A stretch of 64,000 bases of DNA. It comes from Novosphingobium sp. G106. GTDB lineage: Bacteria > Pseudomonadota > Alphaproteobacteria > Sphingomonadales > Sphingomonadaceae. Under the pieces are notes generated by a model. The model was not told the origin of the DNA. It searched no databases and was given only the letters and a program-made list of their open reading frames with translations. A program made the position numbers and the translations under genes. The first letter of the stretch is position 1. The number at the start of each line of letters is the position of its first letter. The stretch covers positions 1,922,001 to 1,986,000 of the forward strand of contig NZ_JAHOOZ010000001.1 in NCBI RefSeq assembly GCF_019075875.1, given 5' to 3'. Below are positions 101-61,173 of the stretch, piece after piece.

Positions 101-117
101 AATGCACCTGATGCATA
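101..117. promoter_or_regulatory. Candidate operator, 17-bp palindrome (site A)
   Basis: Reads AATGCA-CCTGA-TGCATA, an inverted repeat with a 5-bp spacer and one arm mismatch. It lies 46 bp upstream of the first ATG of the hydrolase remnant. The same pattern recurs at 14653, 34834 and 61157 and in looser form at 2909, 44316 and 55915, always in promoter regions. The shape suits a TetR-type dimeric repressor; the binding protein is not known. Confidence 0.5.
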
Positions 118-162
118 AAATTGCTAAACGGTAGCGGCCGGGTGAGAGATGAAAGCGCTGCG

Positions 163-1150
163 ATGGAAAAGCTGATATTCGAAGGGTTCGGCGGCCTTGC
201 GCTGGCGGGGGATGCGTTCGGATCGCAGGAAGCGCCCTGCGTCCTGCTTCTCCACTCGGGAGGCCAGACAAGAAAGAGTTCTGGCATGGATCGGCCCAGG
301 CCCTTGCCCAGGCAGGTCGCCATGCCATCTGCGTCGACCTTCGCGGTCATGGCGAGAGCGGTCATGCCGCCGACGGCCGCTACGATCTGGACGCCTACAT
401 TCAGGACCTGCGCGCAATCCTCGCCAGCCTGCCAAGCCGCGCCGTCGTGGTGGGAGCCGGGCTTGGCGCGATCATCGCGCTGGCCGCGGTAGGCGAAAGC
501 GCTCCCCACCTCGTATCGGGACTGGCGCTCGTCGATATCAACATCTGGTTCGAGGAAGGCGTTCTCGAACGGCTTCACGCCGCGCTGCTCGAACGAACCA
601 TGGGCGCGCAGCTGCCCGAACAGATTGCCGATGCCGTGTCGGCTGCGCACCCTGGCGAGCCGGCACCGGGCGTGAAGCGCCTGCTGGCATCTTTTGACCA
701 ACGCGGCGATGGACGCCTCGCGTGGCGTGGCGATCCCAAGGCGCTGGAGGGCTCCGACCTCTTTGTGCAGCAGGACAGGCTCAGCGAAGCAGCCTCGCGT
801 ATCGCCGCCGCCGTCGTGCTGATGCGCGGCGCGCTCAACGCGACGATTTCGAACCAGGACCTGCAGCGCTTGCAGGCGCTCATCCCGGGCGCGGAACTCG
901 CGGAAATCGAAGGCGCGGGTCATTTCCTCGCGGCGGAGCGGGAAGACCTGTTCGACGCGGTCCTGCTCGATTTCCTGGAACGTCATACGCCTCTGCGGCC
1001 GCTGGAATATATCGGCGGATCGGAGCCGCGAGTGCTGCGCGATGCGCTCGGCTGCTTTGCCACGGGCGTGACCATCATCACCACGCTGAGCGAGACCGGA
1101 GAGCCCATCGGCCTGACCGCGAACTCCTTCACTTCCGTTTCCCTCGATGA
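163..1150 (+). pseudogene. Alpha/beta hydrolase-flavin reductase fusion, frameshifted and truncated
   Basis: The first 35 codons from ATG 163 start an alpha/beta hydrolase (LLLHSGGQTR motif). The rest of that domain (DLRGHGES, the GAGLG nucleophile-elbow region, GAGHFLA with the likely catalytic His) lies in another frame. Adding one A to the AAA at 273-275 restores a single frame reading GGQTRKEFWHGSAQ. From about 1000 the frame runs into the start of an FMN-binding flavin reductase domain (LRDALGCFATGVTIITT, GLTANSFTSVSLD), then stops matching it at about 1150, after only about 45 residues. Hydrolase-flavin reductase fusions of this kind are, as I recall, known in sphingomonads. The loss of the reductase core and the junction to an unrelated gene make this non-functional as a whole. 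Operator site A lies just upstream. Confidence 0.7.
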
Positions 1151-1859
1151 AACCATTGGCCTGCTGCGCGAGGCCGTAGCGCTTGGTCATCGCACGGTGA
1201 ACATTCCAGCTTTTCCGCAAGCCGCGGACGGGGTGAGCACCAGCGCCAAAGTCGGTACGATCCAGATGGCCCAGGGCGCCGCGCTCTCAGGCGATCCGAG
1301 CAGCAGCAAGGCCTATTGGCATCCGGAATTCGAACCGCTTTGGGCGGAAATCCAGAACCTCGACGTCACGGTTACCTTTCACCTTGGCGGCCGCATGGCG
1401 CGTTTCGGCGACAAGGACAATTTCCTGGCGGATCTCGTCATGACGAAGGTGGCGATGGCGGAACCCGTTGCCATGGCGATCTATGGCAACCTGTTTGGGC
1501 GCTTCCCCAAAATGCGCTGGGCGATCATCGAGAGCGGCGTGGGCTGGATACCATGGATGGCCGAATACATGGACCGGACATGGGAGAAGCAGCGCTTCTG
1601 GACCGAAAGCAAGCTTGCAAACCCACCGAGCTATTACATGGATCACAACATCTATGGCTCATTCATCAATGACCGGATGGGCTTCCTCAACTGCAATCTG
1701 CCCGGCGGCAGGAATGTCATGTGGTCTTCCGATTTCCCGCATTCGGAAACCACCTTTCCCAACTCGCTGTCGGTCATAGCCCGCGATACCGTCGGCGTCG
1801 CCGAAGAGGACGTGCGTAGGATCGTCGGCGGCACCGCCGCCAAGCTCTTCAAGATCTGA
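1151..1859 (+). pseudogene. C-terminal fragment of an amidohydrolase-2 family protein
   Basis: About 235 codons in frame with the preceding reductase fragment encode the C-terminal half of a TIM-barrel amidohydrolase (amidohydrolase_2 family, usually 350-420 residues). Visible landmarks are a conserved turn AIIESGVGWIPWM, the metal-ligand Asp in WSSDFPH and the ending GTAAKLFKI. The N-terminal half, including the HxH metal motif, is missing. The seam is near the codons for SLD|ETIGLL, so one open frame spans three unrelated domains. A strong hairpin follows 5 bp after the stop. Most likely a remnant left by a deletion of several kb. Translation of the chimera is possible from internal starts but no activity is expected. 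Confidence 0.75.
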
Positions 1860-1863
1860 TCTT

Positions 1864-1903
1864 GAGCGGCCTGACCCGGCGGATGCTTCGGGTGAGGCCG
1901 CTC
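1864..1903 (+). terminator. Hairpin terminator after the chimeric remnant
   Basis: Inverted repeat of 15 bp with one mismatch (1864-1878 pairing with 1889-1903) around a 10-nt loop, starting 5 bp after the stop at 1859. There is no clear T-run, so it may be a weak or bidirectional terminator between the remnant and the convergent VOC gene. Confidence 0.55.
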
Positions 1904-1990
1904 CTGCATTTCGCGGAGACGGTTGCCGGGAGCATGCGCCCATCGGAGCGGACAAGTTCGCATGCTTCCGCTTCCGCGCCCCTATCGCCT

Positions 1991-2838: not shown

Positions 2839-2908
2839 GCCAATTCCTCGCTGCTGTCCGGCGCCCGCTTCCCGGCGCCATTTCGGCGTTTCGCGTGCCC
2901 GCCACTTA

Positions 2909-2926: not shown

Positions 2927-3023
2927 AATCGAAACAAGCCGGCGTCCTCGTTCTGGTCGGGCCGAAAGATCGGGCGTCGCTCTCGGGCCGAACCGAGGGG
3001 CGACGTGACATTGGGATATAACG

Positions 3024-5655: not shown

Positions 5656-7680
5656 CTATTTGACGACAGCTCGGACGCGGGCGGCAATGGAGGCCGCATG
5701 GGGAACCTGGTTGGTCTCGATAATCTTCGAATAGGCGATGGGCGCATATTCGGCGCCAAGTCGGACAGCCGGGCCCTTGAGCTTGTCCCAAAGCTCCTCG
5801 TTGATCGTCGAGCAGATCTCTGCGCCCATGCCGCAGAACTCGACCGCGGCATGGACAACGACCGCGCGGCCGGTCTTCTTCACCGACTGCAGGATGCGGT
5901 GGTAGTCGATCGGCACCAGCGAACGCAGGTCGATCACTTCGGCGTTGATGCCTTCCTTGGCCAGTTCCTCCGCCGCAGCGAGGCACTGTCCAACCTGCCA
6001 CCCGTAGGTGATCAACGTGACGTCGGTACCCTCGCGCTTCACCTTCGCGACGCCCAGGGGAATGCGATAGTCGCCGATCGGAACCTGATCCTTCTGGGTG
6101 AAGAGAAGCATGATCGATTCCAGAATCACGACGGGATCGGGATCGTTGATCGCCGAAAGCAACAGGCCCTTCGCGTCGACCGGGTTGCTCGGGAAGGCCA
6201 CTTTGATGCCAGGGGTATGTGTGAGCCATGCCTCCAGGCTTTGCGAATGCTGGGCACCGAACCCGCCCATGCCGCCGCCAAGCTGCATGCGGATCGTCAT
6301 CGGGGCATGAGTAGCCGAACCCGACATATAGCGCTGCTTGGCCGCGTGATTGGCGATCTGGTCGAGGCAGACGCCCATGAAGTCGGAAAACATGATCTCG
6401 GCAATCGGGTTCATGCCGGCGATCGAGGAGCCGACTGCGGCGCCGATGATTGCCTGCTCGGCAATGGGGGTCGCCCGGACGCGGCGGTCGCCAAATTCCT
6501 CCTCAAGGCCCTTGTTGGTGCCGAATGCGCCGCCGTGAGGATCGCCGACATCTTCACCGAGAAGGAAGACTTCCGGGTTCTGCGTCATTGCGGCCTTTTG
6601 GGCGCTCTGGATCGCCTGAGCCATGGTCATCGTCTCGGTCGGACCCGAAAACTCGCCCTCGGCTTCGCGGACCGGATAGTGGCTGCGCTTCGGGACCGAA
6701 TCAACATCGGCGAAGACGTCGACCAAGGTCTCGGTCGCGGGCGTGACCTTGCTTTCCAGCGCACGGGCGATCGCGTCGTCGACTTCGGCCTTGGCAGCGG
6801 CCTCGAGCGCAGTGAGCTCGTCCTCACTGGAAATGCCGGCCTCGAGCAGCAGCGCGCGGGTCTTCTCGTAGGGCGCGCGCTCCTTGCCCGCGGCGAGCTC
6901 GTCCTTGGTGGCGTTGTAGTTGTCACCCACGCCCGCGTGCGGCCCGAGGCGATAGGTCATGGCTTCGACGAAGACCGGGCCCTTGCCCTCACGAACGTAG
7001 TCGATGACTTCCTTCATGCCCTTGTAGAAGGCGGCGGGATCGTTGCCGTCGAGCTGGACGCCCTTGAAGCCCAGCGCTTCGGCGCGGCCGAAGAAGTTCG
7101 GGCTGGCGGTATAGGTCGGGATGCGCGTGTATTCGCCCCAGGTGTTGTTCTGGCACATGAAGATCACCGGCAGCTTCCAGGCGCCGGCAAGGTTCATCGC
7201 TTCGTGCACGGCACCGATCGAGGTCGCGCCGTCGCCGAAGTTGACGATCGTCACGCGGTCCTCGCCGCGCTCCTTGGCCGCGATGGCGAGGCCGTTGGCG
7301 ATCGGCGCACCGGCGCCGACGATCGCGGTGGTGACCATCGACCCCGACGAAGGATCGGAGATGTGCGGGGAACCGCCCTTGCCCTTGTTGACGCCGTCTT
7401 CGCGGCCGAGCGCTTCGGCGAACATGCCGTACAGGTCGACGCCCTTGGCGACCTGGTCATGGATGCCGCGATAGGTGGTGATCATGTAGTCGCGGCTCGT
7501 GGTGAGCTGCGAGATCGTCGCCGGAATGCACTCCTGGCCGGTCATCGGCCAGTAGGTGAACATGAACTTGCCCGACGAAAGCCCGGCCTGGACGGCCTTG
7601 TCGACCGCACGGATGCGCGCCATCTGGCCGTAGATCGCCTTGAGGACTTCAGGCTCGATTCCAAGATTTCCTTGTTGCAT
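5656..7680 (-). CDS. Fused E1 alpha-beta subunit of a 2-oxoacid dehydrogenase
   Basis: A 674-residue fusion of the alpha (about 1-335) and beta (about 350-674) subunits of a thiamine-diphosphate 2-oxoacid dehydrogenase. The ThDP motif is visible as GDG at 149-151 and NN at 178-179. The beta part shows the family landmarks GEDVGDPHGG and PSNPVDAKGLL. Such E1s decarboxylate pyruvate, branched-chain oxoacids or acetoin and hand the acyl group to a lipoyl E2. Neither E2 nor E3 is present nearby. It is the last gene of the etfB-etfA-sucC-sucD-E1 run, 67 bp after sucD, with a GGGAG ribosome-binding site. Its substrate cannot be read from sequence. Confidence 0.85.
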   Translation of the reverse strand: MQQGNLGIEPEVLKAIYGQMARIRAVDKAVQAGLSSGKFMFTYWPMTGQECIPATISQLTTSRDYMITTYRGIHDQVAKGVDLYGMFAEALGREDGVNKGKGGSPHISDPSSGSMVTTAIVGAGAPIANGLAIAAKERGEDRVTIVNFGDGATSIGAVHEAMNLAGAWKLPVIFMCQNNTWGEYTRIPTYTASPNFFGRAEALGFKGVQLDGNDPAAFYKGMKEVIDYVREGKGPVFVEAMTYRLGPHAGVGDNYNATKDELAAGKERAPYEKTRALLLEAGISSEDELTALEAAAKAEVDDAIARALESKVTPATETLVDVFADVDSVPKRSHYPVREAEGEFSGPTETMTMAQAIQSAQKAAMTQNPEVFLLGEDVGDPHGGAFGTNKGLEEEFGDRRVRATPIAEQAIIGAAVGSSIAGMNPIAEIMFSDFMGVCLDQIANHAAKQRYMSGSATHAPMTIRMQLGGGMGGFGAQHSQSLEAWLTHTPGIKVAFPSNPVDAKGLLLSAINDPDPVVILESIMLLFTQKDQVPIGDYRIPLGVAKVKREGTDVTLITYGWQVGQCLAAAEELAKEGINAEVIDLRSLVPIDYHRILQSVKKTGRAVVVHAAVEFCGMGAEICSTINEELWDKLKGPAVRLGAEYAPIAYSKIIETNQVPHAASIAARVRAVVK

Positions 7681-7747
7681 CACGTCACTCCCGATCGATT
7701 GTGAGGCGCGACGGCACACAGCCCACCCGCCGCCAGATTTCCCGCCA

Positions 7748-8635
7748 TCAGAGCTCGCGGAGCAGCCCGGCGAGCGTGGTGCCGAGTTCGGACGGCGACG
7801 GCGAAACACGGATGCCCGCGGCTTCCATCGCCGCGATCTTGTCCTCGGCGCCGCCCTGGCCGCCCGAGACGATCGCGCCGGCATGGCCCATGCGGCGGCC
7901 CGGAGGCGCCGTGCGGCCGGCGATGAAGCCGACCATCGGCTTGCGGCGGCCCTTCTTGGCTTCGTCCTTGATGAACTGCGCGGCTTCTTCCTCGGCCGAA
8001 CCGCCGATCTCGCCGATCATGATGATCGACTTGGTGGCGTCGTCGGCCAGGAACAGCTCGAGCACGTCGATGAAGTTGGTGCCGTTGACCGGGTCGCCGC
8101 CGATGCCGACCGCGGTGGTTTGGCCCAAGCCTTCGTTGGTCGTCTGGAACACGGCTTCATAGGTCAGCGTGCCCGAACGCGAAACGACACCGACCGAGCC
8201 CTTCGAGAAGATGGAGCCGGGCATGATGCCGATCTTGCACTCGCCGGGGGTCAGGACGCCGGGGCAGTTCGGGCCGATCAGGCGCGACTTCGAGCCCGAG
8301 AGCGCGCGCTTGACGCGGACCATGTCGAGCACGGGAATGCCCTCGGTAATGGCGACGATCAGCTCGATCTGGGCGTCGATTGCCTCGAGGATCGCATCGG
8401 CGGCGCCGGCGGGCGGCACGTAGATGCAACTCGCGGTGGCGCCGGTCGCGGCCTTGGCCTCGGCGACGGTGTCATACTGCGGCAGGTTGAGGTGCGTCTG
8501 GCCGCCCTTGCCGGGGGTCACGCCCGCGACCATCTGCGTGCCATAGGCCAGTGCGGCTTCGGTGTGGAAGCTGCCGGTTGAGCCGGTCATGCCCTGGGTG
8601 ATGACCTTGGTGTTCTTGTCGACGAGAATGGACAT
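7748..8635 (-). CDS. sucD: Succinate-CoA ligase, alpha subunit
   Basis: A 295-residue SucD with an N-terminal CoA-binding Rossmann domain ([19 protein letters not shown]), the PNCPGV loop and the phosphorylated His251 in RRMGHAGAI. With SucC it interconverts succinyl-CoA + NDP + phosphate with succinate + NTP + CoA. Only 2 bp separate it from the end of sucC, as is usual for the pair. Being placed between ETF genes and an E1 fusion inside a CoA-thioester catabolic island suggests a dedicated copy that handles succinyl-CoA from degradation or recycles CoA. It could equally be the housekeeping copy. Confidence 0.95.
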
Positions 8636-8637
8636 TT

Positions 8638-9852
<1,215 letters not shown>

Positions 9853-9853
9853 C

Positions 9854-10783
9854 TTAGATCTTTCCGGTGAGTTCGGGGACGGCGCCGAACAGGTCGGCGA
9901 CGAGGCCGATGTCGGCGACCTGGAAGATCGGCGCGTCCTCGTCCTTGTTGATGGCGATGATGGTCTTCGAATCCTTCATGCCCGCGAGGTGCTGGATCGC
10001 GCCCGAGATGCCGATGGCGATGTAGACTTCGGGGGCGACGATCTTGCCCGTCTGGCCGACCTGGTAGTCGTTGGGCACGTAGCCCGCGTCGACCGCGGCG
10101 CGCGATGCACCGACGGCGGCGCCGAGCTTGTCGGCGAGCGGGAAGATGACCTGTTCGAAAGTCGGGCCGTCCTTGAGAGCGCGGCCGCCCGAGACGATGA
10201 TCTTGGCGCTGGTCAGCTCGGGGCGTTCCAGCTTGGCGATCTCGGCGCCGGCGAAGCTCGAGATGCCGGCATCGCCCGCTCCCGAAACGCTCTCGACGCT
10301 GGCCGAACCGCCGCTCGCGTCAGCCTTGGCGAAGGCCGTGCCGCGCACGGTGATGACCTTCTTGGCATCGACCGACTGAACCGTGGCGATGGCGTTGCCC
10401 GCATAGATCGGACGCGTGAAGGTGTCGGCGCTCTCGACCGAGAGGATGTCGCTGATCTGCATCACATCGAGCGAAGCGGCGACGCGCGGGGCGATGTTCT
10501 TGCCGTGCGCCGTGGCGGGCGCGAGGAAGGCGTCGTAGCCCGCCATCAGGCCGGCGACGAGCGGTGCGACGTTCTCGGCCAGCTGGTTGGCATAGGCCGC
10601 GTCGTCGGCCAGCAGCACCGTGGCGACGCCGGCGACCTTGGCGGCCTGGTCGGCGACCGCGGCAGCGCCGCTGCCCGCGACGAGGACGTGGACTTCGCCG
10701 AGCTGGGTGCCAGCGGTGACGACGGCGAGCGTGGCGTCCTTCAGCGACGCGTTGTCATGCTCTGCGTAGACGAGGACGCTCAT
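9854..10783 (-). CDS. etfA: Electron transfer flavoprotein, alpha subunit
   Basis: A 309-residue EtfA/FixB. The N-terminal half ([11 protein letters not shown] start) interacts with EtfB. The C-terminal FAD-binding domain is recognisable from [36 protein letters not shown] and [16 protein letters not shown]. It carries electrons from acyl-CoA dehydrogenases to ETF-ubiquinone oxidoreductase. Five acyl-CoA dehydrogenase genes elsewhere in the window would need such an acceptor. Start overlaps the etfB stop by 4 bp. Confidence 0.95.
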
Positions 10784-11529
10784 GCGGCGACTCCCATTTC
10801 CTTGAGTTTGGCGACCAGCGCGTCGACGTCGGCAACCTTGATGCCGGCGCTGCGGACGGGCGGCTCGCCGACCTTGAGCGTCTTGAGGCGCGGTGCGGTG
10901 TCGACGCCGTAGTCGGCGGGGGTCCTGTTCGCCAGCGGCTTGGACTTCGCCTTCATGATGTTGGGCAGCGAAGCATAGCGCGGCTCGTTGAGGCGCAGGT
11001 CGGTGGTGACGATGGCGGGAAGCGTGAGCTTCACCGTCTCGAGGCCGCCATCGACTTCGCGCTTCACGATGACCGAATCGCCTTCGACGGTAACTTCGCT
11101 GGCGAAAGTGCCCTGCGGGCGGCCGAGCAGCGCGGCGAGCATCTGGCCGGTCTGGTTGCTGTCGTCATCGATCGCCTGCTTGCCGAGAATGACGAGGCCA
11201 GGCTGCTCTTCCTCGGCGATCGCCTTGAGGATCTTGGCAACGGCCAGCGGCTCGACTTCGTCGTCGGTCTGGACGAGGATGGCGCGGTCGGCGCCCATGG
11301 CGAGCGCGGTGCGCAGCGTTTCCTGGGCCTTCTGCGGCCCGACGGAAACCGCGATGATCTCGGTCGCGACGCCCTTTTCACGCAGGCGGATGGCTTCCTC
11401 GACGGCGATTTCGTCGAAGGGGTTCATGCTCATCTTGACGTTGGCGAGGTCGACGCCGGTGCCGTCGGACTTGACCCGCGGCTTCACGTTGTAATCGATC
11501 ACCCGCTTCACGGGCACGATGATCTTCAT
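10780..11529 (-). CDS. etfB: Electron transfer flavoprotein, beta subunit
   Basis: A 249-residue EtfB/FixA with the typical opening [16 protein letters not shown], the [18 protein letters not shown] segment, [10 protein letters not shown] and the AMP-site stretch [16 protein letters not shown]. With EtfA it forms the FAD/AMP heterodimer that takes electrons from acyl-CoA dehydrogenases. The ATG at 11529 has an AAGGA ribosome-binding site; the in-frame extension upstream looks non-coding. It is the first gene of the minus-strand unit, so the promoter should lie in 11530-11712. That stretch holds one AATGCACC half-site of the recurring operator motif. Confidence 0.95.
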
Positions 11530-11712
11530 GCAATTCGTCCTTCGCTGCAAAGTATCGCGGAAAGCGTCCCTAGCCGGGGAATCGGCCAAAATTCCGCAGG
11601 TCCACTGAACGAAATTAATGATTCGAGCAAGGTGCATTTCAATTTACACCGAACACACCAAACTTGCTCCGGGCTGGACGAAATGCTGCCTCAAGCCCTC
11701 AACGGCCGCTTC

Positions 11713-13619: not shown

Positions 13620-14614
13620 TCAGGCGGCCGCGATCTCGGGATCAACATCATCGAACTGGTAGAAGCGCGCATATTGCCGGCGATAGGCGAGCAGCGGCCC
13701 ATCGCCTTTCACCAGCATCGGCCGTTCCTGGAAGCGTTTGGCGTTCCATATCGGAATGTCTTGGTTCACCTGCTTGACGAGGTCGCGAATACGCGCCTGG
13801 GTCACGCGCTGCTTGCCCTCGCTTATGCCCGGGGGCACGAACATCTGCCAACGCAGGTGGGTATGCTCGGCGTCGATCGGCGTTACCTGCTGAGCCTGAA
13901 CGACATGGCAGACGTCGATATACTCGACCATCGACTGACCCGGGCCAACCGCGGTCGTGTCGATCTTACCGGTCATGGGCCCACGGGGCGTGTTCATCTC
14001 AGCGACCACCGTGTTGCGACGTGTCCAGCCTTCGAGTTTGAACTCGCCCTTGGGCGCAAAAGGCACGCCGTGGACCGCGCCGAAATGAGCGTGGTCCTGA
14101 CCGTTCTCGGTGATTTCCTGGACATGGATGTTGATCACCCAGTCATAGGTGTCGTGCAGCACCCACTCGCCATCCGGGCAATCGGGCAGTTTCGCGACTT
14201 CCCATTTGGGCGCCACCTTCTTGGGATGGTACCAGACATAGATCACGCCGTCAGATTCCGTCGTCGGCCAAGTGGGCAAGCAGCCGCGTTTGGCCTGAGG
14301 CGGAATGACATCAGAGTAGGGGATGTCGGTGACGGCGCCCTGCCCGTCGAAGCTCCAATGGTGGAATGCGCAGCGCAGATCGTTGCCGACCACCTCGCTG
14401 GCAACGCCGAGGTGTGCACCCAGGTGCGGGCAAAACGGATCGACGGCATGGACACTTCCGTCGACCCCGCGCCACATCACGAACTCGGTGGCGAAGTAGC
14501 GCAGGGTCTTCACCTCGCCCGGTGCGACGTCGCCAGACGTGGCGACGGCGAACCAGCCGAAGGGATCGGCAGTTTGGCAAAGCCGCGATCGAGAGGAGAG
14601 GTGGCAGCGTCCAT
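13620..14614 (-). CDS. Rieske non-heme iron oxygenase (KshA-like), N-terminus frameshifted
   Basis: A Rieske oxygenase alpha subunit resembling 3-ketosteroid 9alpha-hydroxylase (KshA). The Rieske ligands are visible as CPHLGAH and CAFHHW, and the mononuclear iron motif as ENGQDHAHFGAVH. The expected N-terminus MDAATSPLDRGFAK starts at ATG 14614 behind a CGGAG ribosome-binding site but runs into a different frame before ADPFGWFAV. Adding one base to the 3-base run at 14573-14575 (A on the coding strand) gives FAKTADPFGWF and an intact 331-residue protein. As it stands, an open frame from an ATG at 14654 could still express the protein with about 30 altered residues. Needs a ferredoxin and reductase, not seen here. 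Operator site J lies 39 bp upstream of 14614. Confidence 0.8.
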
Positions 14615-14652
14615 CACATACTCCGAAAGAATCCCGATCCATCGACTCACGC

Positions 14653-14669
14653 AATGCACCAGATGAATT
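14653..14669. promoter_or_regulatory. Candidate operator, 17-bp palindrome (site J)
   Basis: Reads AATGCA-CCAGA-TGAATT, arms matching the other sites with a single mismatch and the same 5-bp spacer. It lies just upstream of the Rieske oxygenase start at 14614 and would overlap its promoter. Confidence 0.45.
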
Positions 14670-14711
14670 TCATTATATCCCGCGATGCCGGGCAGGTCAA
14701 AGTAGTGCAGG

Positions 14712-15938
14712 TTAGCGGCCTCTCGGGATCTCCCGGAAGGGCACGTTCTTGTCGACGCGGATGTCACCCGGCAGCCCGAGCACGCGTTCGGCAATGATGT
14801 TCTTCATGATCTCGTCGGTGCCGCCGCCGAGGCGCAGACCCGGCGCCCAGAGGAAACGGTGCTGGAACGCGCCGTTCATCGCCGCCTCGTCGGGATCGTC
14901 CATCAGGCCAGCGTGATCGAGCAGGTCGAGCGCCTTGTCGGTCAGGTTCTGGGCGAGGTTCGACCAGAGCAGCTTGCCCGCCGAGCCTTCGGGACCGGGC
15001 GTCGCACCCTTGGACAGCGAGGTCAGCGTGCGAAAGCTCATCAGGCGGATCGCCTCGGCATCGACGTAGAGGTCGGCCAGCCATTCGCGGAATGCGGGAT
15101 CCTCGAGCGCGGGCCCGTCGAACGAAGGCGTTTCGGCAGCAAGTGCCATAATGTCGCGCCAGTTGAGCCCGGTGCCCGAACCGAGCGAGGCACGCTCGTT
15201 CATCAAGGTGGTGATGATGACCTTCCACCCACCGCCCTCTTCACCGACGCGCTGGCTGTCGGGCAGGCGCACGTCGGTGAGGAACACTTCGTTCAGTTCG
15301 TTGTCGCCCGACATCATGCGGATCGGCCGGACCTCGACGCCGGGGGTCTTCATGTCGAGCCAGAAGACGGTCAGGCCCTTGTGCTTGGGTAGGTCCGGAT
15401 TGGTGCGGGCGACGAGCATGCCATAGTCGGCGATCTGCGCGCCGCTGTTCCAGACTTTCTGGCCGTTGATCACCCAGCCATCTCCATCCCGAACGGCAGC
15501 GCAGCGCACGCCGGCGGAATCGGAACCGCTCGCCGGTTCGGAGAACAGCTGGCACCAGATCTCCTCGCCGCGCACCGCCGGGGGCACGCGGGCGAGTGAG
15601 GCCTCGTCCTTGTTGTGCTCCATCAGCGCGGGCAGCAGCATGTCGAGCCCGGTGCGGAAGTAGTTGAACTGGAGCCCGGCGCGCAGTTCCTCCTGGCCGA
15701 AGATCGCCTCCTCGATCGCGGTGCCACCGGCTCCGCCCCACTCCGGGGACCAGGAAATGCAGGCGTATCCCGCCGCGGCCTTGGTCGCCTGCCAGACGCG
15801 CGCGACGTCCTTGTGCTTGTCGTGCCACTGGCGCCGCTCGGTCGGGGTGAGCCCGCTCATGTCGGGCGCGTTGTCGGCGATCCAGGCGCGGACTTTGGCG
15901 CGGTAGCCGGCCTCTTCAGGGCTTTCGTCGAAGTTCAT
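14712..15938 (-). CDS. Acyl-CoA dehydrogenase, subunit of a heteromeric pair
   Basis: A 408-residue acyl-CoA dehydrogenase with the medium-chain fold: SWSPEWGGAGGT, QLFSEPASGSDSAGV for flavin and substrate contacts, VINGQKVWNSGAQ, and the C-terminal GGGTDEIMKNIIAERVLGLP. It is encoded next to a second, divergent acyl-CoA dehydrogenase with a 4-bp overlap. That layout is typical of alpha2beta2 dehydrogenases such as the ChsE/FadE pairs of steroid side-chain degradation. The reaction would be alpha,beta-desaturation of an acyl-CoA with electrons going to ETF. The substrate is unknown; a bulky polycyclic thioester is plausible from context. Confidence 0.88.
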   Translation of the reverse strand: MNFDESPEEAGYRAKVRAWIADNAPDMSGLTPTERRQWHDKHKDVARVWQATKAAAGYACISWSPEWGGAGGTAIEEAIFGQEELRAGLQFNYFRTGLDMLLPALMEHNKDEASLARVPPAVRGEEIWCQLFSEPASGSDSAGVRCAAVRDGDGWVINGQKVWNSGAQIADYGMLVARTNPDLPKHKGLTVFWLDMKTPGVEVRPIRMMSGDNELNEVFLTDVRLPDSQRVGEEGGGWKVIITTLMNERASLGSGTGLNWRDIMALAAETPSFDGPALEDPAFREWLADLYVDAEAIRLMSFRTLTSLSKGATPGPEGSAGKLLWSNLAQNLTDKALDLLDHAGLMDDPDEAAMNGAFQHRFLWAPGLRLGGGTDEIMKNIIAERVLGLPGDIRVDKNVPFREIPRGR

Positions 15939-17065: not shown

Positions 17066-17341
17066 GGCAGCTCTCCCGGCGGTCAGCCAGCTTTACAATA
17101 CTCGACGCTCGTTGCAATACTAAGTGCACTCCTCGGTGCCGAAAATTGGATGGCTTTGGGGCTGCGCTCGAATACCGCGGGAGTGCTCTCGATCGCCAGG
17201 CTCGAGACATTGTGGAGGAGGTGCACGCAGGCCGGTTCGCGCAACTTTGACCACCAGACTGATGATCGAACGCCGCCGTGCGCCCTCTATCTTTATGGTT
17301 GCGCCCGGCCTCGTTTGCCCAATGGCAGCGAGCCGTGACGG

Positions 17342-18199: not shown

Positions 18200-18346
18200 G
18201 TATCGCCTTCCTCTCTAACGTCGGCACTGAAAGCGAGCCGGCCGCCACCTGCATCCGTTCCGAGAAACCGATGGCAGTTCGTTACCGCGGCCGACCTCCC
18301 TACTTGCCGGTGCCCCCGGGCTCTGCGAAGCGTTGGGGAATAGTCC

Positions 18347-19099
18347 TCACGATTTCCGCTTGGCCACCGGTTTAGTTGATTTCGAACTGGCCTTCGGACG
18401 TGAAGCGCCGAAGCGACCGTTGATGAACAGGTCGATCTTCACCTCGATGTCCGCTTCGGTGGGCGCTGCGCTGGCCCAGCCGAAGTAAATCATGACCGTG
18501 TGATTTCCGAGAAGGAGATCGACGAACAGTTCGGCCGACTGGTCGTGATCGCCGTCGGGAATGAGCTTCCTCTCGGCAAGTTCGCGGAAAAGCGCTGCCA
18601 CATTGCTGGTGAAGCGCGTGAAGATCGTTGTCGCGATCTTGGTCATCAAGTCGGGAAAGCGGGCGCTTTCCGCGATCATCAGGCGCATCAGTTCGATTGA
18701 CCGCGAGCGCAGAGCGACCTGGTAGGAATAATGTGCCGCCTTGCGCAGCGCGGAGTCGAGATCCTCAACCTCCGCGAGCACCGGCGGATCGATCTTGGCG
18801 GTGTCGCGAGCGAAGATCACTTCGCGGAATATCGCCTCCTTGTCACCGAAGTGCTGGTAGAGCGTGCGGGTCGCCACACCGGCCTTCTTGGCGATGTCGA
18901 GCAGGGTGGTCGCCGCAAAGCCGCGCCTGATGAACATCTCGGTCGCAACTTCCATGACCTTGAGCTTGCGCCGCTCGAGCTCGTCAAGCGTCGGGCGCCC
19001 GGCGCGGTTCCGCTTACGCTTGGGCGGCGCCTTGGCGCGCAGCGGCAGCGCCGCGACGCGGCCGCTGGCCTTTTTCGAAACTGGAGCAACCTTTTCCAA
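18347..19099 (-). CDS. TetR family transcriptional regulator
   Basis: A 250-residue TetR-type repressor. The first 35 residues are rich in Lys/Arg and probably disordered. The DNA-binding domain follows (VMEVATEMFIRRGFAATTLL, then AGVATRTLYQHFGDKEAIF), then a helical ligand domain and another basic tail. Ligands of such regulators in catabolic clusters are often acyl-CoAs. It is the only regulator gene in the window and is therefore the leading candidate for binding the repeated AATGCA-N5-TGCATT element. Its own upstream region has AATGCAACG at 19145-19153, identical to the left half of the site at 44316, about 46 bp before the start. That link is inference. Confidence 0.9.
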   Translation of the reverse strand: MEKVAPVSKKASGRVAALPLRAKAPPKRKRNRAGRPTLDELERRKLKVMEVATEMFIRRGFAATTLLDIAKKAGVATRTLYQHFGDKEAIFREVIFARDTAKIDPPVLAEVEDLDSALRKAAHYSYQVALRSRSIELMRLMIAESARFPDLMTKIATTIFTRFTSNVAALFRELAERKLIPDGDHDQSAELFVDLLLGNHTVMIYFGWASAAPTEADIEVKIDLFINGRFGASRPKASSKSTKPVAKRKS

Positions 19100-19213
19100 A
19101 ATCTCACCTCATGAACGGCAGAAAAGCGTGTTTTCTCACAAAAGAATGCAACGCAATGGGGCCCAAATGGTCAATTTTTTATGTCGACACAACCCCATTC
19201 GCCTAGTTTTTCA

Positions 19214-19234
19214 CCAGAGGCATTGCATTTCTGG
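19214..19234. promoter_or_regulatory. Small palindrome between reductase stop and tetR
   Basis: CCAGA-N11-TCTGG, with GCATTGCATT inside the spacer, lies just after the stop of the OYE-like reductase and 115 bp upstream of tetR. It could be a hairpin at the end of the reductase transcript or a second regulator site. Evidence is the symmetry only. Confidence 0.25.
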
Positions 19235-19237
19235 ACA

Positions 19238-21259: not shown

Positions 21260-21289
21260 AAAGGGTCCTTTTGCAAATTAGTGTCTAAA

Positions 21290-22078: not shown

Positions 22079-22087
22079 GCCGCGAAC

Positions 22088-23652: not shown

Positions 23653-23926
23653 ATCATATCTCCTGCGGTCAGACCATTTTTCCGCGCTGACCGCGACGCA
23701 TCGCCCGCCAGGGAGCGCACTTTAAAAGGGCCGCCCCTCCATAGCCCAGCCACGATTGGAGTAAAGAATGAATACGACCTATTGCAATATCTCCATCAGC
23801 GGTTAGTGCAGCGATGCGTGCCCGGTGAGCGTCGCTGCCAGACACATTGGCCCGACGCGGATCGGGCAATTCAATTGGCGGGCGAACTCGATGCGAGCGC
23901 TGCGCTAAACCGAGAGCTGGATCGAA

Positions 23927-30010: not shown

Positions 30011-30015
30011 GCGAA

Positions 30016-34701: not shown

Positions 34702-34833
34702 TGCACACTCCCAGAACACCGCACTGTTGCCCGCGCTTCCAGAGCGCATCGGCTCGACGGGCCATCCAACTCTGCCAATTGATGTCTCCAAGCCGACAGT
34801 CGCACGAGACATTCTTCGCCGATGCCCTTATGC

Positions 34834-34850
34834 AATGCAAACGATGCATT
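34834..34850. promoter_or_regulatory. Candidate operator, perfect 17-bp palindrome (site B)
   Basis: AATGCA-AACGA-TGCATT, with perfect 6-bp arms and a 5-bp spacer. It sits between the divergent ligase (start 34701) and MFS gene (start near 34869), 19 bp before the latter. This is the best copy of the repeated element. Confidence 0.6.
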
Positions 34851-36137: not shown

Positions 36138-36384
36138 ACGTAGAAGCGTCGACCACTCGCCCCGCAGGCCAGAGCGTGTGCCGGCTTTCTCCGGATTTGC
36201 AACTAAACGGACAAGGGGATTGGCGATTTTGTGTGACTTCACAAATTGCAAAGAGAGGCTAGCCACCGCTAATGCTCGCCGCTATGTGCATTAATATCGG
36301 GCCTTTGGCCAATGACCGCGAGCCGAGCAGAAATTGCACGCGGAGAGGTTTCGGCATCCAGCCCCCGTTTAGGAGATTTTCGCG

Positions 36385-44315: not shown

Positions 44316-44331
44316 AATGCAACGATGCAAT
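44316..44331. promoter_or_regulatory. Candidate operator variant (site C)
   Basis: AATGCA-ACGA-TGCAAT, the repeated element with a 4-bp spacer. It lies in the divergent promoter between the EthD gene (start 44249) and the aldehyde dehydrogenase (start 44474), upstream of two operons with related contents. Confidence 0.45.
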
Positions 44332-44473
44332 TACTTTATTGCATCACGGTTCCGATTCATCTTAGGGCCGCATTTGAAGAGCGGAAACTGGCACGCAGAT
44401 CGAGCGTCGCGACACATCCTTGCGAAGCTCCCCGCGCCCCAATCGTCCGACGGACACGAGCAGGAGAGTATTG

Positions 44474-54269: not shown

Positions 54270-55820
54270 TCAGGCGGGCGCATATTTTTGGCGCAACGCT
54301 TTCTTGTCGGGCTTGCCGACGGGCGTGACGGGAAGCGCGTCGACGAAGTCGACGCTTTTGGGTGCCTGCACAGCACCTTTTCGCTCGCGTACGGCAGCAA
54401 TCAAAGCTTCGGCGGTGACAGTGGCGCCCGGCTCGAGCACCACCACGGCCTTCACGGCCTCGCCCCATTTGGGATCTGGCACCCCGATAACGGCAGCCTG
54501 GCGCACGCCGACCTGGTCGACCAGTACGTCCTCGACCTCGCGGGCGTAGACGTTGAAGCCGCCAGTGACGATCATGTCTTTCTTGCGGTCGACGATGCGC
54601 AGAAAGCCGTCCGCGCTCCGGACCGCGACATCCCCTGTGTGCAACCAGCCGCCTTCGAAAGCCGCAGCGGTCTCCTCCGGCTTGCCCAGATAGCCGGACA
54701 TCAACAAGGGACCGCGAACGCAGATTTCGCCCGGTGTTCCGTCAGCGACCTCGTTCATGCTGTCGTCCATGAGCGCAACATGCACGAGCGAGGTTGGGCG
54801 TCCGCAACTTGCCAGCCGATCAGGTTTAGTCACGTCGTGCTCACTGCGGCGCATCACCGTCACCGACATCGGGGCCTCAGCCTGACCGTAAAACTGGAAG
54901 AAGACCGGACCGAACCTCTCGATCGCGTGCCTGAGCCGAGCCGCCGGAAAGGCGGCAGCGCCATAGAAAACGACTTCAAGGCTCGACAGATCGAATTCGC
55001 CGAACCTGGGGTGGTCCATGATCGCGATAACCATGGTCGGCACCAGGAGAACGGAAGTAATGCGATGTTCCTCGATCGCCTGCATCGTGGACACCGGGTC
55101 GAAGCCCGGCATGACCACCATGAAGCCGCCCTTCGAGAGGACCGTGGTCAGGACAGCGGCGCCCGAATGACTGAGCGGCGCGCAGATAAGATGCCGAATT
55201 TCGGCCGGCCACTCCCATTCCAGTAATTGGATCATCGCCGAGGTCATCGCAGACTGGTGGGAGCACATGATGCCTTTTGGCTTGCCCGTGGTCCCGCCCG
55301 AATAGGCAATGCGGAAGAGAGCCGCCGGATCCGCGGGCTTCGCGGCCAGGGGCTGGGGCTCGTAGGTCTGGCTAGCCTCGACGATGTCGCGCCCGACACT
55401 GCCCTCGCCCATGGCCAGGAAGTGCCTGAGCCGGGGCGCCCGCTGTTTGAGCGCCGCCGCGATAGGCTCATAGAGTTCCGCATCGTAGACCAGCGTATCG
55501 ATGCCGGCATCCTCGATGACATAGAGATAGTCTTCGACCGAGCCCATGGGATGAAGCGTCGTCAGGACGATACCGGCAAAGCCGAGCCCGTTGGTGGCAT
55601 AGAGCACCTCCACCCGGTTGCGGGCGAGCACCGCCGCGCGTTTCGGCGCCGGATCGAGGTTCTCGAAAAGTTGCTGGAAGCGGCTGATGGAGTCGCGCAT
55701 CCCGCCCGCTGTGACGCGCTCACCATCGACGCCAATAAGCACCAAGCGATCGAGATCGCGCGACAATGCGTGGGCGACGAGATCGCCAGTGGTGATCGCT
55801 TGGTGCAGAAAATCACTCAT
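54270..55820 (-). CDS. ANL-family acyl-CoA synthetase (AMP-forming)
   Basis: A 516-residue ligase: P-loop IAYSGGTTGKPKGIM (YSG rather than the more usual YTSG), FYGQAEAPMSVTV, GGWLHTGDVAVR, IVDRKKDMIVTGGFNVY and a C-terminal PVGKPDKKALR with the adenylation Lys. It makes an acyl-CoA from an acid using ATP. It diverges from another ligase at 56137 across a promoter containing operator variant D. Upstream in-frame sequence beyond 55820 is not convincing. Confidence 0.92.
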   Translation of the reverse strand: MSDFLHQAITTGDLVAHALSRDLDRLVLIGVDGERVTAGGMRDSISRFQQLFENLDPAPKRAAVLARNRVEVLYATNGLGFAGIVLTTLHPMGSVEDYLYVIEDAGIDTLVYDAELYEPIAAALKQRAPRLRHFLAMGEGSVGRDIVEASQTYEPQPLAAKPADPAALFRIAYSGGTTGKPKGIMCSHQSAMTSAMIQLLEWEWPAEIRHLICAPLSHSGAAVLTTVLSKGGFMVVMPGFDPVSTMQAIEEHRITSVLLVPTMVIAIMDHPRFGEFDLSSLEVVFYGAAAFPAARLRHAIERFGPVFFQFYGQAEAPMSVTVMRRSEHDVTKPDRLASCGRPTSLVHVALMDDSMNEVADGTPGEICVRGPLLMSGYLGKPEETAAAFEGGWLHTGDVAVRSADGFLRIVDRKKDMIVTGGFNVYAREVEDVLVDQVGVRQAAVIGVPDPKWGEAVKAVVVLEPGATVTAEALIAAVRERKGAVQAPKSVDFVDALPVTPVGKPDKKALRQKYAPA

Positions 55821-55914
55821 CACACGGCTCCGCTGCCTGCGCCCCTCTCCCGGGCTCTGGCGGAAAGTCCACCTCAGCCCGCAAGCAGGCATGGACGATG
55901 CGCGCGCGAAAAAC

Positions 55915-55936
55915 AATGCAATTCATGCGATGCATT
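55915..55936. promoter_or_regulatory. Candidate operator variant with N10 spacer (site D)
   Basis: Perfect arms AATGCA and TGCATT separated by 10 bp, i.e. the repeated element with half a helical turn more. It sits between two divergent acyl-CoA ligase genes. A related element, GATGCATTGCGATAG, follows at about 56044. The 316-bp intergenic region has no other feature that I can support. Confidence 0.45.
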
Positions 55937-56136
55937 CGGTGCGCGCAAACACCGCTATTCGCCAGGCCATCCCCTGTCTGGGCAGCAATCGCCCGAATGG
56001 TCCATTTGCGGAGGTCGCGACAATATATTTTAGAATTGCGCGTGATGCATTGCGATAGTTCGCTCGACATCTATAAGGCAGGCAGGTCCTTTCGGGACAG
56101 CCCTCCACCCCGCGATCGCAAAGGCCTCCAGGTCCA

Positions 56137-57675
56137 ATGCACCCCAGAATTCACGCCCAGAACTTTCCCGAGAAGGCCGCCGTCATCATGGCGGACACGG
56201 CCCAGACCGTGACCTATCGCGAGCTTGAGGAACGCGCCAATCGCGGTGCCCGAGCCCTGCGCGCGCTGGGTCTTTGCAGTGGCGATACGTTAGCGCTGGC
56301 GTCAGACAACCGGGCCGAGATATTCGATATCTATTGGGCGGCGCAGCGTGCGGGCCTTATCCTGGTGCCCCTCTCTGCCCGGCTCAAGACCGACGAGATC
56401 TCGTACATCGTCAACGACAGTGAAGCCAAGGCGCTCGTGGTCTCCGATGCGCTCGCTGGTACCGTCCGCGAAGTCGCAGCCCATCGCGAAGCCATGCCTG
56501 GACTGGTCCATATCGTCACAATCGGCGCGGTGGCTGGCCATCTGGATTGGCTGGTGCTTTGCAGCGTGCAGGCGTCGTCTCCGATCGATGACGAGCAGAT
56601 CGGCGGAAGGATGGCCTATTCATCGGGAACGACGGGCCGGCCGAAGGGAATCCGGTTCGCGCCGGGTTCGGGAACACCGATCCAGCCAAATCCTGGCGCT
56701 CAACTGTTCGGACGGCTTTATGGGGTCGGTGCGGACACCGTCTATCTCTCGCCCGCTCCACTGTACCACAGCGCTCCGCTGGGCTTTACCGCCGGCATCC
56801 AGGCCCTGGGCGGCACCACTGTGGTCATGCCGAAGTTCGAGCCAGAAAAATTCCTCTCCGCCATCGAGCAATACGGGATCACCGCGGTGATGGTCGTCCC
56901 GACGATGTTCATCCGTCTTCTGAGACTGCCGCAGGACGTAAGGAACCGGTACGATCTCTCGCCACTCAAGAGGGTCATCCACGCCGCCGCCCCCTGCCCC
57001 ATTCCCGTGAAGCACGCGATGATCGACTGGCTTGGCCCGATCATCGACGAATTTTACGCCGGCTCGGAGGGCAATGGCCATGTCACGATCAGCAGCGAGG
57101 AATGGCTGCGTAAGCCAGGGTCGGTCGGCCGCGCAGTCATTGGCGAGATCCATATCTGTGACGACGACGGCAACGAGCTTCCGGTCGGCGAAACCGGGAC
57201 AATCTACTTCGGTGGCGGCAAGCCGTTTCGCTACCACAACGACCCAGCCAAGACCAAGGCGACGCAAAATGCGCTGAACCCCGATTGGACCACAATGGGC
57301 GATGTCGGAAGCGTCGACGACGACGGCTATCTCTTTCTTTCGGATCGCAAGGATTTCATGATTATCTCTGGCGGGGTCAATATCTACCCGCAGGAGGTGG
57401 AAAACCTGCTGCTAAGCCATCCCGCGGTTGCGGATGCGGCAGTCTTCGGCGTGCCACATCCCGACTTTGGCGAAGAGGTGAAGGCCGTGATTCAGCCTGC
57501 GCACTGGGCAGCTGCCAGCGACACCCTTGCCCAGGAACTGATCGGGTGGTGCCGCGAGCGACTGGCAGACGTCAAATGTCCGCGAAGCATCGACTTCGAG
57601 AAGGAGCTGCCTCGCGCGGAAACAGGCAAGCTTTACAAAAAGGAGCTGAAGGACCGGTACTGGCCTGCCAGCTAG
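56137..57675 (+). CDS. ANL-family acyl-CoA synthetase (AMP-forming)
   Basis: A 512-residue ligase: VTYRELEERANRGARAL, P-loop AYSSGTTGRPKGIRF, EFYAGSEGNGHVTI, WTTMGDVGSVDDDGYL, LSDRKDFMIISGGVNIYPQE and the C-terminal Lys in AETGKLYKKELKDRY. Belongs to the fatty-acid/bile-acid type acyl-CoA ligases. It is a lone plus-strand gene; the downstream small gene is convergent after 4 bp. Confidence 0.92.
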   Translation: MHPRIHAQNFPEKAAVIMADTAQTVTYRELEERANRGARALRALGLCSGDTLALASDNRAEIFDIYWAAQRAGLILVPLSARLKTDEISYIVNDSEAKALVVSDALAGTVREVAAHREAMPGLVHIVTIGAVAGHLDWLVLCSVQASSPIDDEQIGGRMAYSSGTTGRPKGIRFAPGSGTPIQPNPGAQLFGRLYGVGADTVYLSPAPLYHSAPLGFTAGIQALGGTTVVMPKFEPEKFLSAIEQYGITAVMVVPTMFIRLLRLPQDVRNRYDLSPLKRVIHAAAPCPIPVKHAMIDWLGPIIDEFYAGSEGNGHVTISSEEWLRKPGSVGRAVIGEIHICDDDGNELPVGETGTIYFGGGKPFRYHNDPAKTKATQNALNPDWTTMGDVGSVDDDGYLFLSDRKDFMIISGGVNIYPQEVENLLLSHPAVADAAVFGVPHPDFGEEVKAVIQPAHWAAASDTLAQELIGWCRERLADVKCPRSIDFEKELPRAETGKLYKKELKDRYWPAS

Positions 57676-59119: not shown

Positions 59120-59255
59120 CACGCCGGGATTCCCTTGTTGAAGCAGTTGCCGCTGCGAAAATCGCCGGCTGCGGCGCCCAGCTGGGCCGGTTCGATCATC
59201 CACATTCTCCCGTGCCCGGGTCGCTTTCCGACCGAGGTCGTTTCGCGAGGCACCG

Positions 59256-60344
59256 TCAGGCGTTGAACATGATTACGGAGCGGGCAAGCTCACCCGTGCG
59301 CATATCGGCAAAGGCCTCATTGATTTCGGCGAGCGGCCGGCGCCGCGATACCATTTGATCGAGGTGAAGCCGGCCCGTCATGTAGAGATCGACGTAGCTG
59401 GGAATATCGATCGCAGGTCGCACCCCGCCCATCATGGAGCCCTGCACCCGCTTTTCGCGAAGAAACGCAAGGGCGGGCAATTCGAGCATCGTATCGAAGC
59501 GTGCCGCGCCGACGATCGTCTCGAGTCCGCCCTTTGCGAGCATGGCGAAGCCTTGCTCGATGGTCTGCTTGAGGCCGATTGCCTCGATCACATGATCGAC
59601 GCCGCGCCCTTGCGTCAGGGCCATGACCTGCTCGACGACGCTTCCCTGCGTTCCATCGATCGCATCTGTCGCACCGAAAGTGCGTGCGAGGTCCAGTTTC
59701 GACGCAACCTGATCGATGGCGATGATCCGCCCTGCCCCGACAACCGCTGCGGCGTTTATCGCGGCCAGGCCGACGCCGCCGCAGCCGATCACCACCACGG
59801 TTTCTCCGGATTTCACTGCCGCACTGCGGGTCACCGCACCGAAGCCAGTGGTGACCCCGCAACCAATCAGACAGGCGCGGTCGAAGGGCATGTCGCGGCG
59901 AATGGCAACGCAGCCACTTTCATGGACCAGGATTTGCTCGGCGAAGGCTCCCATGTTCATGAAGGCCGCGAATTGCTCCTTGCCCTGGTAGAGGCGCGGG
60001 GGTTCATCCGCGGCGCGGGCAGCCTCGGCGGTGTTACAGCGGTGTGTATTACCGCCATGACACTGCTCGCAGTGACCACAGTGAAACGTGAGGCACACCA
60101 CAACATGGTCGCCGGGACGCACTGCCCTCACTTCCGGGCCCACCATCTCGACAACGCCAGCCGCTTCGTGGCCAAGCACCGCCGGCAGCGGGTGCTGAAG
60201 GTCGCCAGTCAGGATGTGGAGATCAGAATGGCAAACACCCACGGCCTCGAGGCGCACCAGTACTTCGCGCCCTTGAGGTTTGGCGATCGAGATGTCCTCG
60301 ATCTCCATGCGCTGCGCAATCTCGCGCAGGACAGCAGCTTTCAT
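59256..60344 (-). CDS. Zinc-dependent alcohol dehydrogenase (MDR, class III-like)
   Basis: A 362-residue medium-chain dehydrogenase: catalytic zinc Cys/His in GVCHSDLH and GHEAAGVVE, structural zinc cysteines in CGHCEQCHGGNTHRC, the CGVTTGFGAV segment and the NAD motif VIGCGGVGLAA followed by an Asp-containing beta-2 end. It should oxidise a primary or secondary alcohol with NAD+. Followed by the kinase gene after about 137 bp; preceded by an SDR gene after 29 bp. Confidence 0.92.
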   Translation of the reverse strand: MKAAVLREIAQRMEIEDISIAKPQGREVLVRLEAVGVCHSDLHILTGDLQHPLPAVLGHEAAGVVEMVGPEVRAVRPGDHVVVCLTFHCGHCEQCHGGNTHRCNTAEAARAADEPPRLYQGKEQFAAFMNMGAFAEQILVHESGCVAIRRDMPFDRACLIGCGVTTGFGAVTRSAAVKSGETVVVIGCGGVGLAAINAAAVVGAGRIIAIDQVASKLDLARTFGATDAIDGTQGSVVEQVMALTQGRGVDHVIEAIGLKQTIEQGFAMLAKGGLETIVGAARFDTMLELPALAFLREKRVQGSMMGGVRPAIDIPSYVDLYMTGRLHLDQMVSRRRPLAEINEAFADMRTGELARSVIMFNA

Positions 60345-60373
60345 TCTATCACTCCCATTTTCGCGGGGGTCGC

Positions 60374-61153
60374 CTACTTGATGCCGAAGCGAACGCCGGC
60401 ATCGAGGCGGATCGACTGGGCATTCATGTAGGTGTTGCGGCACAGTTCGAGCGCCATCGAGGCATATTCCTCTGGGTCACCGAAGCGATTTGGAAAGGCT
60501 GTCATCGCGCTCAGGCGGTCCTTCATTTCCTGGGGCGCACGGTTCATCAGCGGCGTGCTGAAGATGCCCGGCAGGATCGTGTTGATGCGAATTCCAAAGC
60601 GCCCGAGGTCGCGCGCGATAGGCAAAGTCATGCCGGCGATCGCGGCTTTGCCGGCGGCATAGGCCGCCTGTCCCATCTGCCCGTCCTGGGCGGCGACCGA
60701 CGCAGTGCAGACGATCGCGCCGCGCTCTCCATCGATGGGTTCGAGCGTGGCAGCGCCTGCCGCAAAGCGCGTGATCGTCGCGAAAGTGCCGACTGCGTTC
60801 AGGCTCACGACCCGCGCAAATTCGGCGGTCGGGAATATGCTAATGTTGCCGGTCTCGCGATCCCTGCGGATCGTGGTCACCGCGTTTCCACCGCCGGCAC
60901 AAGCGATCAGAATTCGTTCCTGACCATTGGCCTCTCGCGCCCGGACAAAAGCCGCATCAAGGCTGGAGTCGGAAAGGACATCGGCCTGGCAAAAAACGGC
61001 GCCCGTGTCTGCTGCGGCCCGTTCTCCGGCCTCAGGGTTGAGGTCGAAGATGGCAACTTTAACGCCGGCCGCCCGAAGGGCGTGGACGCTGGCCAAGCCA
61101 AGACCGGATGCTCCGCCGGTCACGACTGCAGAGATGGAAGGATCGATTCGCAT
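60374..61153 (-). CDS. SDR, 3-hydroxyacyl-CoA dehydrogenase type II-like
   Basis: A 259-residue SDR: TGGASGLG, FDLN at the end of beta-2 (NAD preference), CAGGGNAVT, CTASVAAQDGQMGQAAYAAGK with Ser/Tyr/Lys and PGIFSTPLMN. It resembles HSD17B10/FabG-like 3-hydroxyacyl-CoA dehydrogenases, including the extended EARARE-like region before CAGG. ATG 61153 is 4 bp from operator site F, so repression by promoter or leader blocking is likely if that site is real. It leads the SDR-ADH-kinase-small protein unit. Confidence 0.85.
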   Translation of the reverse strand: MRIDPSISAVVTGGASGLGLASVHALRAAGVKVAIFDLNPEAGERAAADTGAVFCQADVLSDSSLDAAFVRAREANGQERILIACAGGGNAVTTIRRDRETGNISIFPTAEFARVVSLNAVGTFATITRFAAGAATLEPIDGERGAIVCTASVAAQDGQMGQAAYAAGKAAIAGMTLPIARDLGRFGIRINTILPGIFSTPLMNRAPQEMKDRLSAMTAFPNRFGDPEEYASMALELCRNTYMNAQSIRLDAGVRFGIK

Positions 61154-61156
61154 TGC

Positions 61157-61173
61157 AAGGCACCTGTTGCATT
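61157..61173. promoter_or_regulatory. Candidate operator, 17-bp palindrome (site F)
   Basis: On the minus strand reads AATGCA-ACAGG-TGCCTT, one arm mismatch and the same 5-bp spacer as sites A, B and J. It overlaps the leader of the SDR gene (start 61153) and lies 130 bp from the divergent P450 start. Confidence 0.5.

Follow-up and report, generated by a model that had tools for sequence, protein, structure and literature searches.

What controls the catabolic genes on a 64,000-nucleotide stretch of Novosphingobium sp. G106 (the window, C1:1922001-1986000 of the 7.23-Mb genome), and is the palindrome AATGCA-N5-TGCATT that recurs there the operator of the TetR-family protein encoded at 18347-19099? 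Our analysis favours this link: with a probability of roughly 0.77, the sites are operators of this TetR protein and its close paralogs, which would repress promoters of uptake and catabolic genes for steroid- or bile-acid-type compounds. As judged from sequence comparisons, the main operator appears to be a 22-bp palindrome, AATGCA-N10-TGCATT, with the 17-bp N5 form nested inside, so that the original prediction saw part of it.

A probable 22-bp operator with a nested 17-bp palindrome

A search for palindromic 6-mer dyads in the noncoding part of 250 kb (the window plus C1:40-120 kb and C1:1816-1922 kb) ranked AATGCA-N10-TGCATT first (19 vs 0.3 expected) and AATGCA-N5-TGCATT second (11 vs 0.3). 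Because this DNA was picked for N5 clustering, the rank of the N5 dyad is not independent; the N10 form was not selected for. A raw dyad count over all DNA was dominated by GC-rich words and was replaced by the noncoding counts with expectation. Genome-wide, there are 38 N10 sites versus 1 for the control and 12 N5 sites versus 2 for the reversed control. Nine of these 12 N5 sites are nested in an N10 site (≤1 mismatch), giving overlapping inverted repeats within a 22-bp operator as in the TetR subclass that binds as a pair of dimers; the other three lie at window position 101, C1:62168 and C1:1894584. Both pairs are made up of WWTGCA half-sites. Inverted pairs peak at N5 (11), N10 (19) and N15 (3), direct pairs at N3 (5), N8 (12) and N13 (5), and a single spacing rule, TGCA units 9, 14 or 19 bp apart, fits all of these peaks. 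Within the N10 spacer, an inner TGCA is enriched at positions 8-11 and 12-15 of the 38 own-genome sites (z 3.6), and G is avoided at position 7 (2/76).

In the window itself, a pattern scan agrees with the four predicted N5 sites, at 101-117, 14653-14669 and 61157-61173 with one mismatch each and at 34834-34850 with none, and adds a fifth at 55920-55936 with one mismatch. At ≤2 mismatches the N5 form has 8 matches versus 1.98 in shuffles, a number reached by 0/100 shuffles; at ≤1 mismatch, 60 second-order Markov simulations give an expectation of 0.02 for N5 (5 observed, simulated maximum 1) and of 0.07 for N10 (6 observed). None of 119 permuted arms reached the N5 or N10 window count. The proposed perfect-arm N10 variant at 55915 is indeed there, and two further N10 sites, 36271-36292 and 62605-62626, had been missed. 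The predicted N4 variant at 44316 exists as AATGCA-N4-TGCAAT, but is better read as part of GATGCA-N10-TGCATC at 44324-44345. The site at 2909, already called weak, has no match at ≤2 mismatches in either register. Half-sites were correctly placed upstream of tetR (19145) and of an ETF gene (TGCATT at 11633). The sites of the window, none of which has a strand assigned, are:

101..117: N5 operator, one mismatch, 46 bp before the ATG at 163 (pattern scan)
11617..11638: weak N10 site, two mismatches, upstream of the ETF gene (pattern and domain scan)
14653..14674: nested N10/N5 operator, one mismatch, before the gene of a KshA-like Rieske oxygenase (KshA_C is present in a 90% identical relative)
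23767..23788: weak N10 site, two mismatches, upstream of an FMO-like/CoA-ligase operon (the paralog promoter at L060:6150 has one mismatch)
34829..34850: nested N10 (one mismatch) with a perfect N5, between an acyl-CoA ligase fragment and an MFS fragment
36271..36292: N10 operator, one mismatch, upstream of a CoA-transferase gene
44324..44345: symmetric N10 site GATGCA-N10-TGCATC, two mismatches, between EthD-domain and aldehyde dehydrogenase genes
55915..55936: perfect N10 enclosing an N5, between divergent genes for acyl-CoA ligases
61152..61173: nested N10/N5, one mismatch, in contact with the ATG start codon (61153, minus strand) of an SDR gene
62605..62626: N10 site, one mismatch, after a P450 gene and not clearly upstream of any called gene (pattern scan)

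The genes flanking the 14653 site lie on the same strand. Several reading frames in the window look split, at 163-1859 (alpha/beta hydrolase), 32943-34812 (acyl-CoA ligase), 34922-36132 (MFS) and 61306-62548 (P450), by assembly error or decay.

Genome-wide distribution and the genes behind the sites

The N10 sites are clustered: 28 of the 38 (counted from the list) fall into the three stretches C1:44-171 kb, 1.346-1.373 Mb and 1.826-2.051 Mb. We called coding and intergenic DNA with a simple gene caller of our own in 730 kb, which hold all 12 N5 sites. Although this DNA is 82% coding, 40/40 rows at ≤1 mismatch (31 distinct places) are intergenic, as expected from the earlier claim that the motif sits in promoter regions rather than in coding sequence, and 35 of the 40 have a called gene start within 400 bp. 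Ten N10 sites lie outside the 730 kb; among them, C1:6090547 is inside an open reading frame and C1:5739688 near the start of a doubtful one. No called open reading frame surrounds the N10 site C1:2499461.

Among the first genes behind the sites are those for TonB receptors (L029, L031, L032, L054, L114, L115), P450s (L026, L056), KshA-type Rieske oxygenases (L028, L116) and a ring-hydroxylating oxygenase (L061), besides CoA-transferases, AMP-binding ligases, SDRs, epoxide hydrolases, MFS transporters and an acyl-CoA dehydrogenase. Neighbours of the site genes in the window include ETF, thiolase, ChsH2-like, acyl-CoA dehydrogenase, BaiCD-like and FMO-like genes. These gene kinds, together with a likeness to the bsd I cluster discussed below, point to steroid or bile-acid breakdown as the probable pathway; NCBIfam matches such as CasG and SdmA score below their curated cut-offs. 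Orthologous operons with sites were found for the FMO-like/CoA-ligase genes in genomes G319 and G304, CoA-ligase in G125, Rieske oxygenase in G044 and G125, aldehyde dehydrogenase in G044 and G351, and CoA-transferase/SDR in G319.

L114:9148-9169 and L115:15102-15123 are perfect N10 sites whose spacers resemble each other (ATATGAGCTGA-type); each lies 18-20 bp before an SDR gene, in two duplicated loci.

The TetR protein as the probable owner of the sites

The proposed repressor and the elements before its gene are as follows:

18347..19099, minus strand: TetR-family regulator, proposed repressor (TetR_N, TetR_C_7, TetR fold model, paralogs)
19145..19154, minus strand: proximal half-site GCGTTGCATT upstream of tetR, the same in 5 close copies
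19208..19229, minus strand: distal AATGCA-N10-TGAAAA upstream of tetR, with a degenerate right arm (coordinates from the TGCATT at 19224)

The protein matches TetR_N (E 8.2e-17, 61.2 bits vs a cut-off of 24) as well as TetR_C_7, and its predicted structure is an all-helical TetR fold of nine helices (mean pLDDT 80) with Foldseek matches to TetR structures. Close paralogs of 80% and 79% identity are encoded at C1:109711 and C1:1350769. Among orthologs of ≥50% identity, the recognition-helix segment AGVATRTLYQHFGDKEA (AGVATRTLYQHFGDK) hardly varies. A further relative at C1:173740 (49%) has a different recognition segment and was not counted as a co-regulator. The TetR/acyl-CoA dehydrogenase/FMO-like cluster occurs in three paralogous copies, window 13620-31047, L028 (C1:100-120 kb) and L059-L060 (C1:1340-1370 kb), with most genes 77-97% identical in protein.

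Site counts across genomes are in line with this candidate. Of 149 genomes of the genus, 16 are carriers, set apart from the rest by a drop in the best TetR matches from 1e-63 to 1e-31 or weaker. Carriers have a median of 10 N10 sites (range 2-38) versus 3 in the 133 non-carriers (p 5.6e-8), and the contrast persists when our own genome is left out (p 2.0e-7). Novosphingobium malaysiense, a strain with one tetR copy, has 16 N10 sites. A family sample of 397 genomes from 96 genera contained four further genomes with a TetR of ≥50% identity, and in three of these four other genera the counts track the ortholog: 8 sites in G304 (siblings 1 and 2), 17 in G351 (siblings 0-3) and 8 in G319 (siblings 0-2). 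Two genomes with a TetR of 40-41% have 2 sites each.

Co-occurrence with TetR would be expected of any regulator of linked genes, and we therefore split the genomes by the linked acyl-CoA dehydrogenase gene. Genomes with TetR and without the dehydrogenase have a median of 8 sites (n=7), those with the dehydrogenase and without TetR a median of 3 (n=36; p 0.0019); the medians are 11 with both (n=9) and 2 with neither (n=97). This favours the view that N10 counts follow TetR rather than the linked catabolic gene.

Two linked IclR regulators were tested as rivals. The earlier statement that TetR is the only regulator gene is true of the 58 window open reading frames scanned, but outside the window the clusters have IclR genes nearby: IclR-A at C1:1911053 (L033, 10 kb beyond the left end of the window) and at C1:1381344 (L061), and IclR-B at C1:1328611 (L058). 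Either could own the sites: orthologs of both occur in several TetR carriers, the IclR-A copy of L061 is preceded at 77 bp by a 2-mismatch N10 site, and the DNA protected by PheR, an IclR repressor of Sphingobium, contains three ATGCA words according to the accessible text on it. The same text, however, gives GCAACG and not TGCA as the essential core of PheR. Moreover, the IclR model at 1e-40 had no match in the site-rich genomes G125 (27 sites) and G068 (13) and a weaker, unclassified one in G135 (11), while six genomes with IclR-A and no TetR ortholog, some of them incomplete, have 2-4 sites. Site counts thus do not follow the IclR gene; with 150 of 350 candidates scored in the family search, we rejected it as main owner and consider such ownership very improbable, with a second layer of control beside the catabolic clusters as a possible role.

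The spacing of the N5 form brings in a second family: TGCA-N5-TGCA is also a T-N11-A box, the box of LysR-type regulators, and the largest site stretch contains a LysR gene (C1:1850458). The N10 form, which dominates, is at odds with this box, though, and the other two site stretches contain none of the 33 LysR matches (150 of 169 candidates scored). Since two of the three stretches have no LysR match, LysR was dismissed as main owner, and its use of the sites is extremely unlikely.

The promoters of tetR itself again point to the TetR protein. With ≤1 mismatch, an N10 site precedes tetR by 122 bp (G351), 140 bp (L084) or 198 bp (G068), and 2-mismatch sites precede it by 87 bp (G044, L075), 102 bp (L074) or 172 bp (L077). 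Among 13 tetR loci (named records), 6 hold 10 N10 sites versus 1 and 0 for two control arms. The window tetR shares with four close copies the proximal GCGTTGCATT and a distal element, AATGCAATGC or in one copy AATGCAACGC, followed by TGAAAA.

A third alternative is that several TetR proteins with similar recognition share the sites and no single family owns them. The 32% relative at C1:4697663 is an example: an N10 site lies in the gap between its gene and a divergent TonB receptor gene (L114:1609-5053, C1:4697.6-4701.1 kb). The two outlying sites with alike spacers, both preceding an SDR gene, and the existence of site-rich non-carrier genomes would also suit sharing. Yet the recognition segment of this relative, AGTSPKTLTRHFCGK, differs from AGVATRTLYQHFGDK of the window TetR, and sharing leaves unexplained why 28 of the 38 N10 sites fall into three stretches with close TetR paralogs, so that we regard it as unlikely.

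Several observations weigh against ownership by the window TetR and its paralogs. The fourth carrier from another genus, G508 (80% complete), has 2 sites with siblings at 0-3, and within the genus the carriers G053 (incomplete) and G133 also have 2 each. Conversely, the non-carriers G074 and G058 of the genus have 10 and 8 sites, and in the family sample 14 non-carriers (counted by eye) reach ≥8, with G379 highest at 16. The sites closest to tetR in G125 are ~660 and ~820 bp away, 5 of the 13 tetR loci have no site passing the listing rule, and the Rieske operon in G082 and G136 has no site at ≤1 mismatch. The inner TGCA enrichment falls to z 1.8 in 76 sites of TetR carriers, 2 of the 38 N10 sites overlap an open reading frame, and a sigma-70 scan of 55800-56160 found no promoter boxes. 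Base composition or other regulators may cause the site-rich non-carriers.

Genomes that lack this TetR and have 8-16 N10 sites include G216, G379, G322, G389, G466, G074 and G058.

A possible mode of repression

The N10 counts, the sites before several tetR orthologs and the nearly invariant recognition segment favour the originally proposed single regulon under the protein at 18347-19099, but this regulon would be genome-wide and probably served by three TetR paralogs. Without inducer, one TetR dimer would occupy the two half-sites of the N5 form, which are separated by roughly one turn of the helix, and 22-bp sites would be filled by two dimers with a 5-bp offset, which suggests opposite DNA faces. 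With the sites occupied, tetR itself and the uptake and catabolic genes would have their promoters or start regions covered, and a steroid-type metabolite or its CoA ester could release the repressor and thereby switch on several dispersed operons together. The contact of 61152-61173 with the SDR start codon is easier to reconcile with repression than with activation. Binding, repression, inducer and stoichiometry are what we infer from the DNA and protein sequences.

According to the accessible parts of the CprB paper, TetR relatives place one dimer on 15-17 bp sites and two on sites of ≥22 bp, and the nested 17/22-bp anatomy would fit such one-or-two-dimer binding. More tentatively, and with somewhat less than even odds, the three TetR paralogs might read the 17/22-bp operators such that length and half-site number grade repression, from TonB receptors to side-chain and ring-cleavage operons; such a regulon, genome-wide in sphingomonads, would be to proteobacteria what the KstR regulon is to actinobacteria, and would have an operator code of its own.

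Comparison with known systems

The KstR operator has AAC/GTT arms. The motif described here has other half-sites, and its distinction from KstR, noted at the outset, is borne out. KstR and KstR2 of actinobacteria are TetR repressors of a genome-wide steroid regulon, as far as the accessible text goes (PMC8700777); they belong to another lineage than the sphingomonad TetR, and KstR2 is a weak match to it in sequence and fold.

Closer in lineage is EGO55_16300, the TetR of the cholate-induced bsd I cluster of Caenibius tardaugens, for which the accessible text gives the palindromes ATAGGGCCATTG and GCATGCGGGATGC as the authors' proposal (PMC12882949). Its setting resembles window 13620-19099, with tetR by an amidohydrolase, a monooxygenase and two acyl-CoA dehydrogenases, gene kinds being matched by description alone. 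The proposed palindromes, however, are unlike the N10/N5 operator; the latter offers a specific sequence on which the proposal for the bsd I TetR could be tried. EdcR, the TetR estrogen repressor of C. tardaugens, is likewise a sphingomonad TetR for steroid catabolic operons, and its proposed palindromic operator TnnCnnTACnAnTnGTAnnGnnA overlaps promoters in the part of the source at hand (PMC8700777). Compared by eye, TnnCnnTACnAnTnGTAnnGnnA has no TGCA half-sites, whereas the N10/N5 sites lack a TAC/GTA core.

For the binding mode, the best parallels are CprB, QacR and FadRSa, in which two dimers read overlapping inverted repeats (CprB on 22 bp), FadRSa binding as one or two dimers depending on the operator, as described in the accessible sections (PMC4150764, PMC6449355). 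They differ in sequences, ligands and genes from the window system, whose stoichiometry we infer. The nearest solved folds to the TetR model are FrrA, MexL and MLR_4833, with 24-28% identity in the aligned part; FrrA structures contain the flavonoids genistein and naringenin, and FrrA is linked to an efflux pump in the text available. An uncharacterised TetR is also mentioned, in the accessible text, for the pdc cluster of sphingomonads.

Among the literature matches listed, in their accessible parts, we recognised no earlier description of an AATGCA-N10/N5-TGCATT operator; the operator itself thus seems unreported, while a TetR repressor switch is a familiar kind of system. Characterised regulators of steroid breakdown form a "very short list" in the accessible text of one source (PMC8700777). 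With an operator defined and a candidate repressor named, the regulon can be listed across many genomes of sphingomonads, and clues to missing genes such as uptake receptors and orphan oxygenases emerge; the system could also serve steroid biosensors.

As a minor observation on the window, third-position GC is ~0.8-0.9 in many genes of 5656-11529 and 14712-31047 versus ~0.7 for most other window genes.

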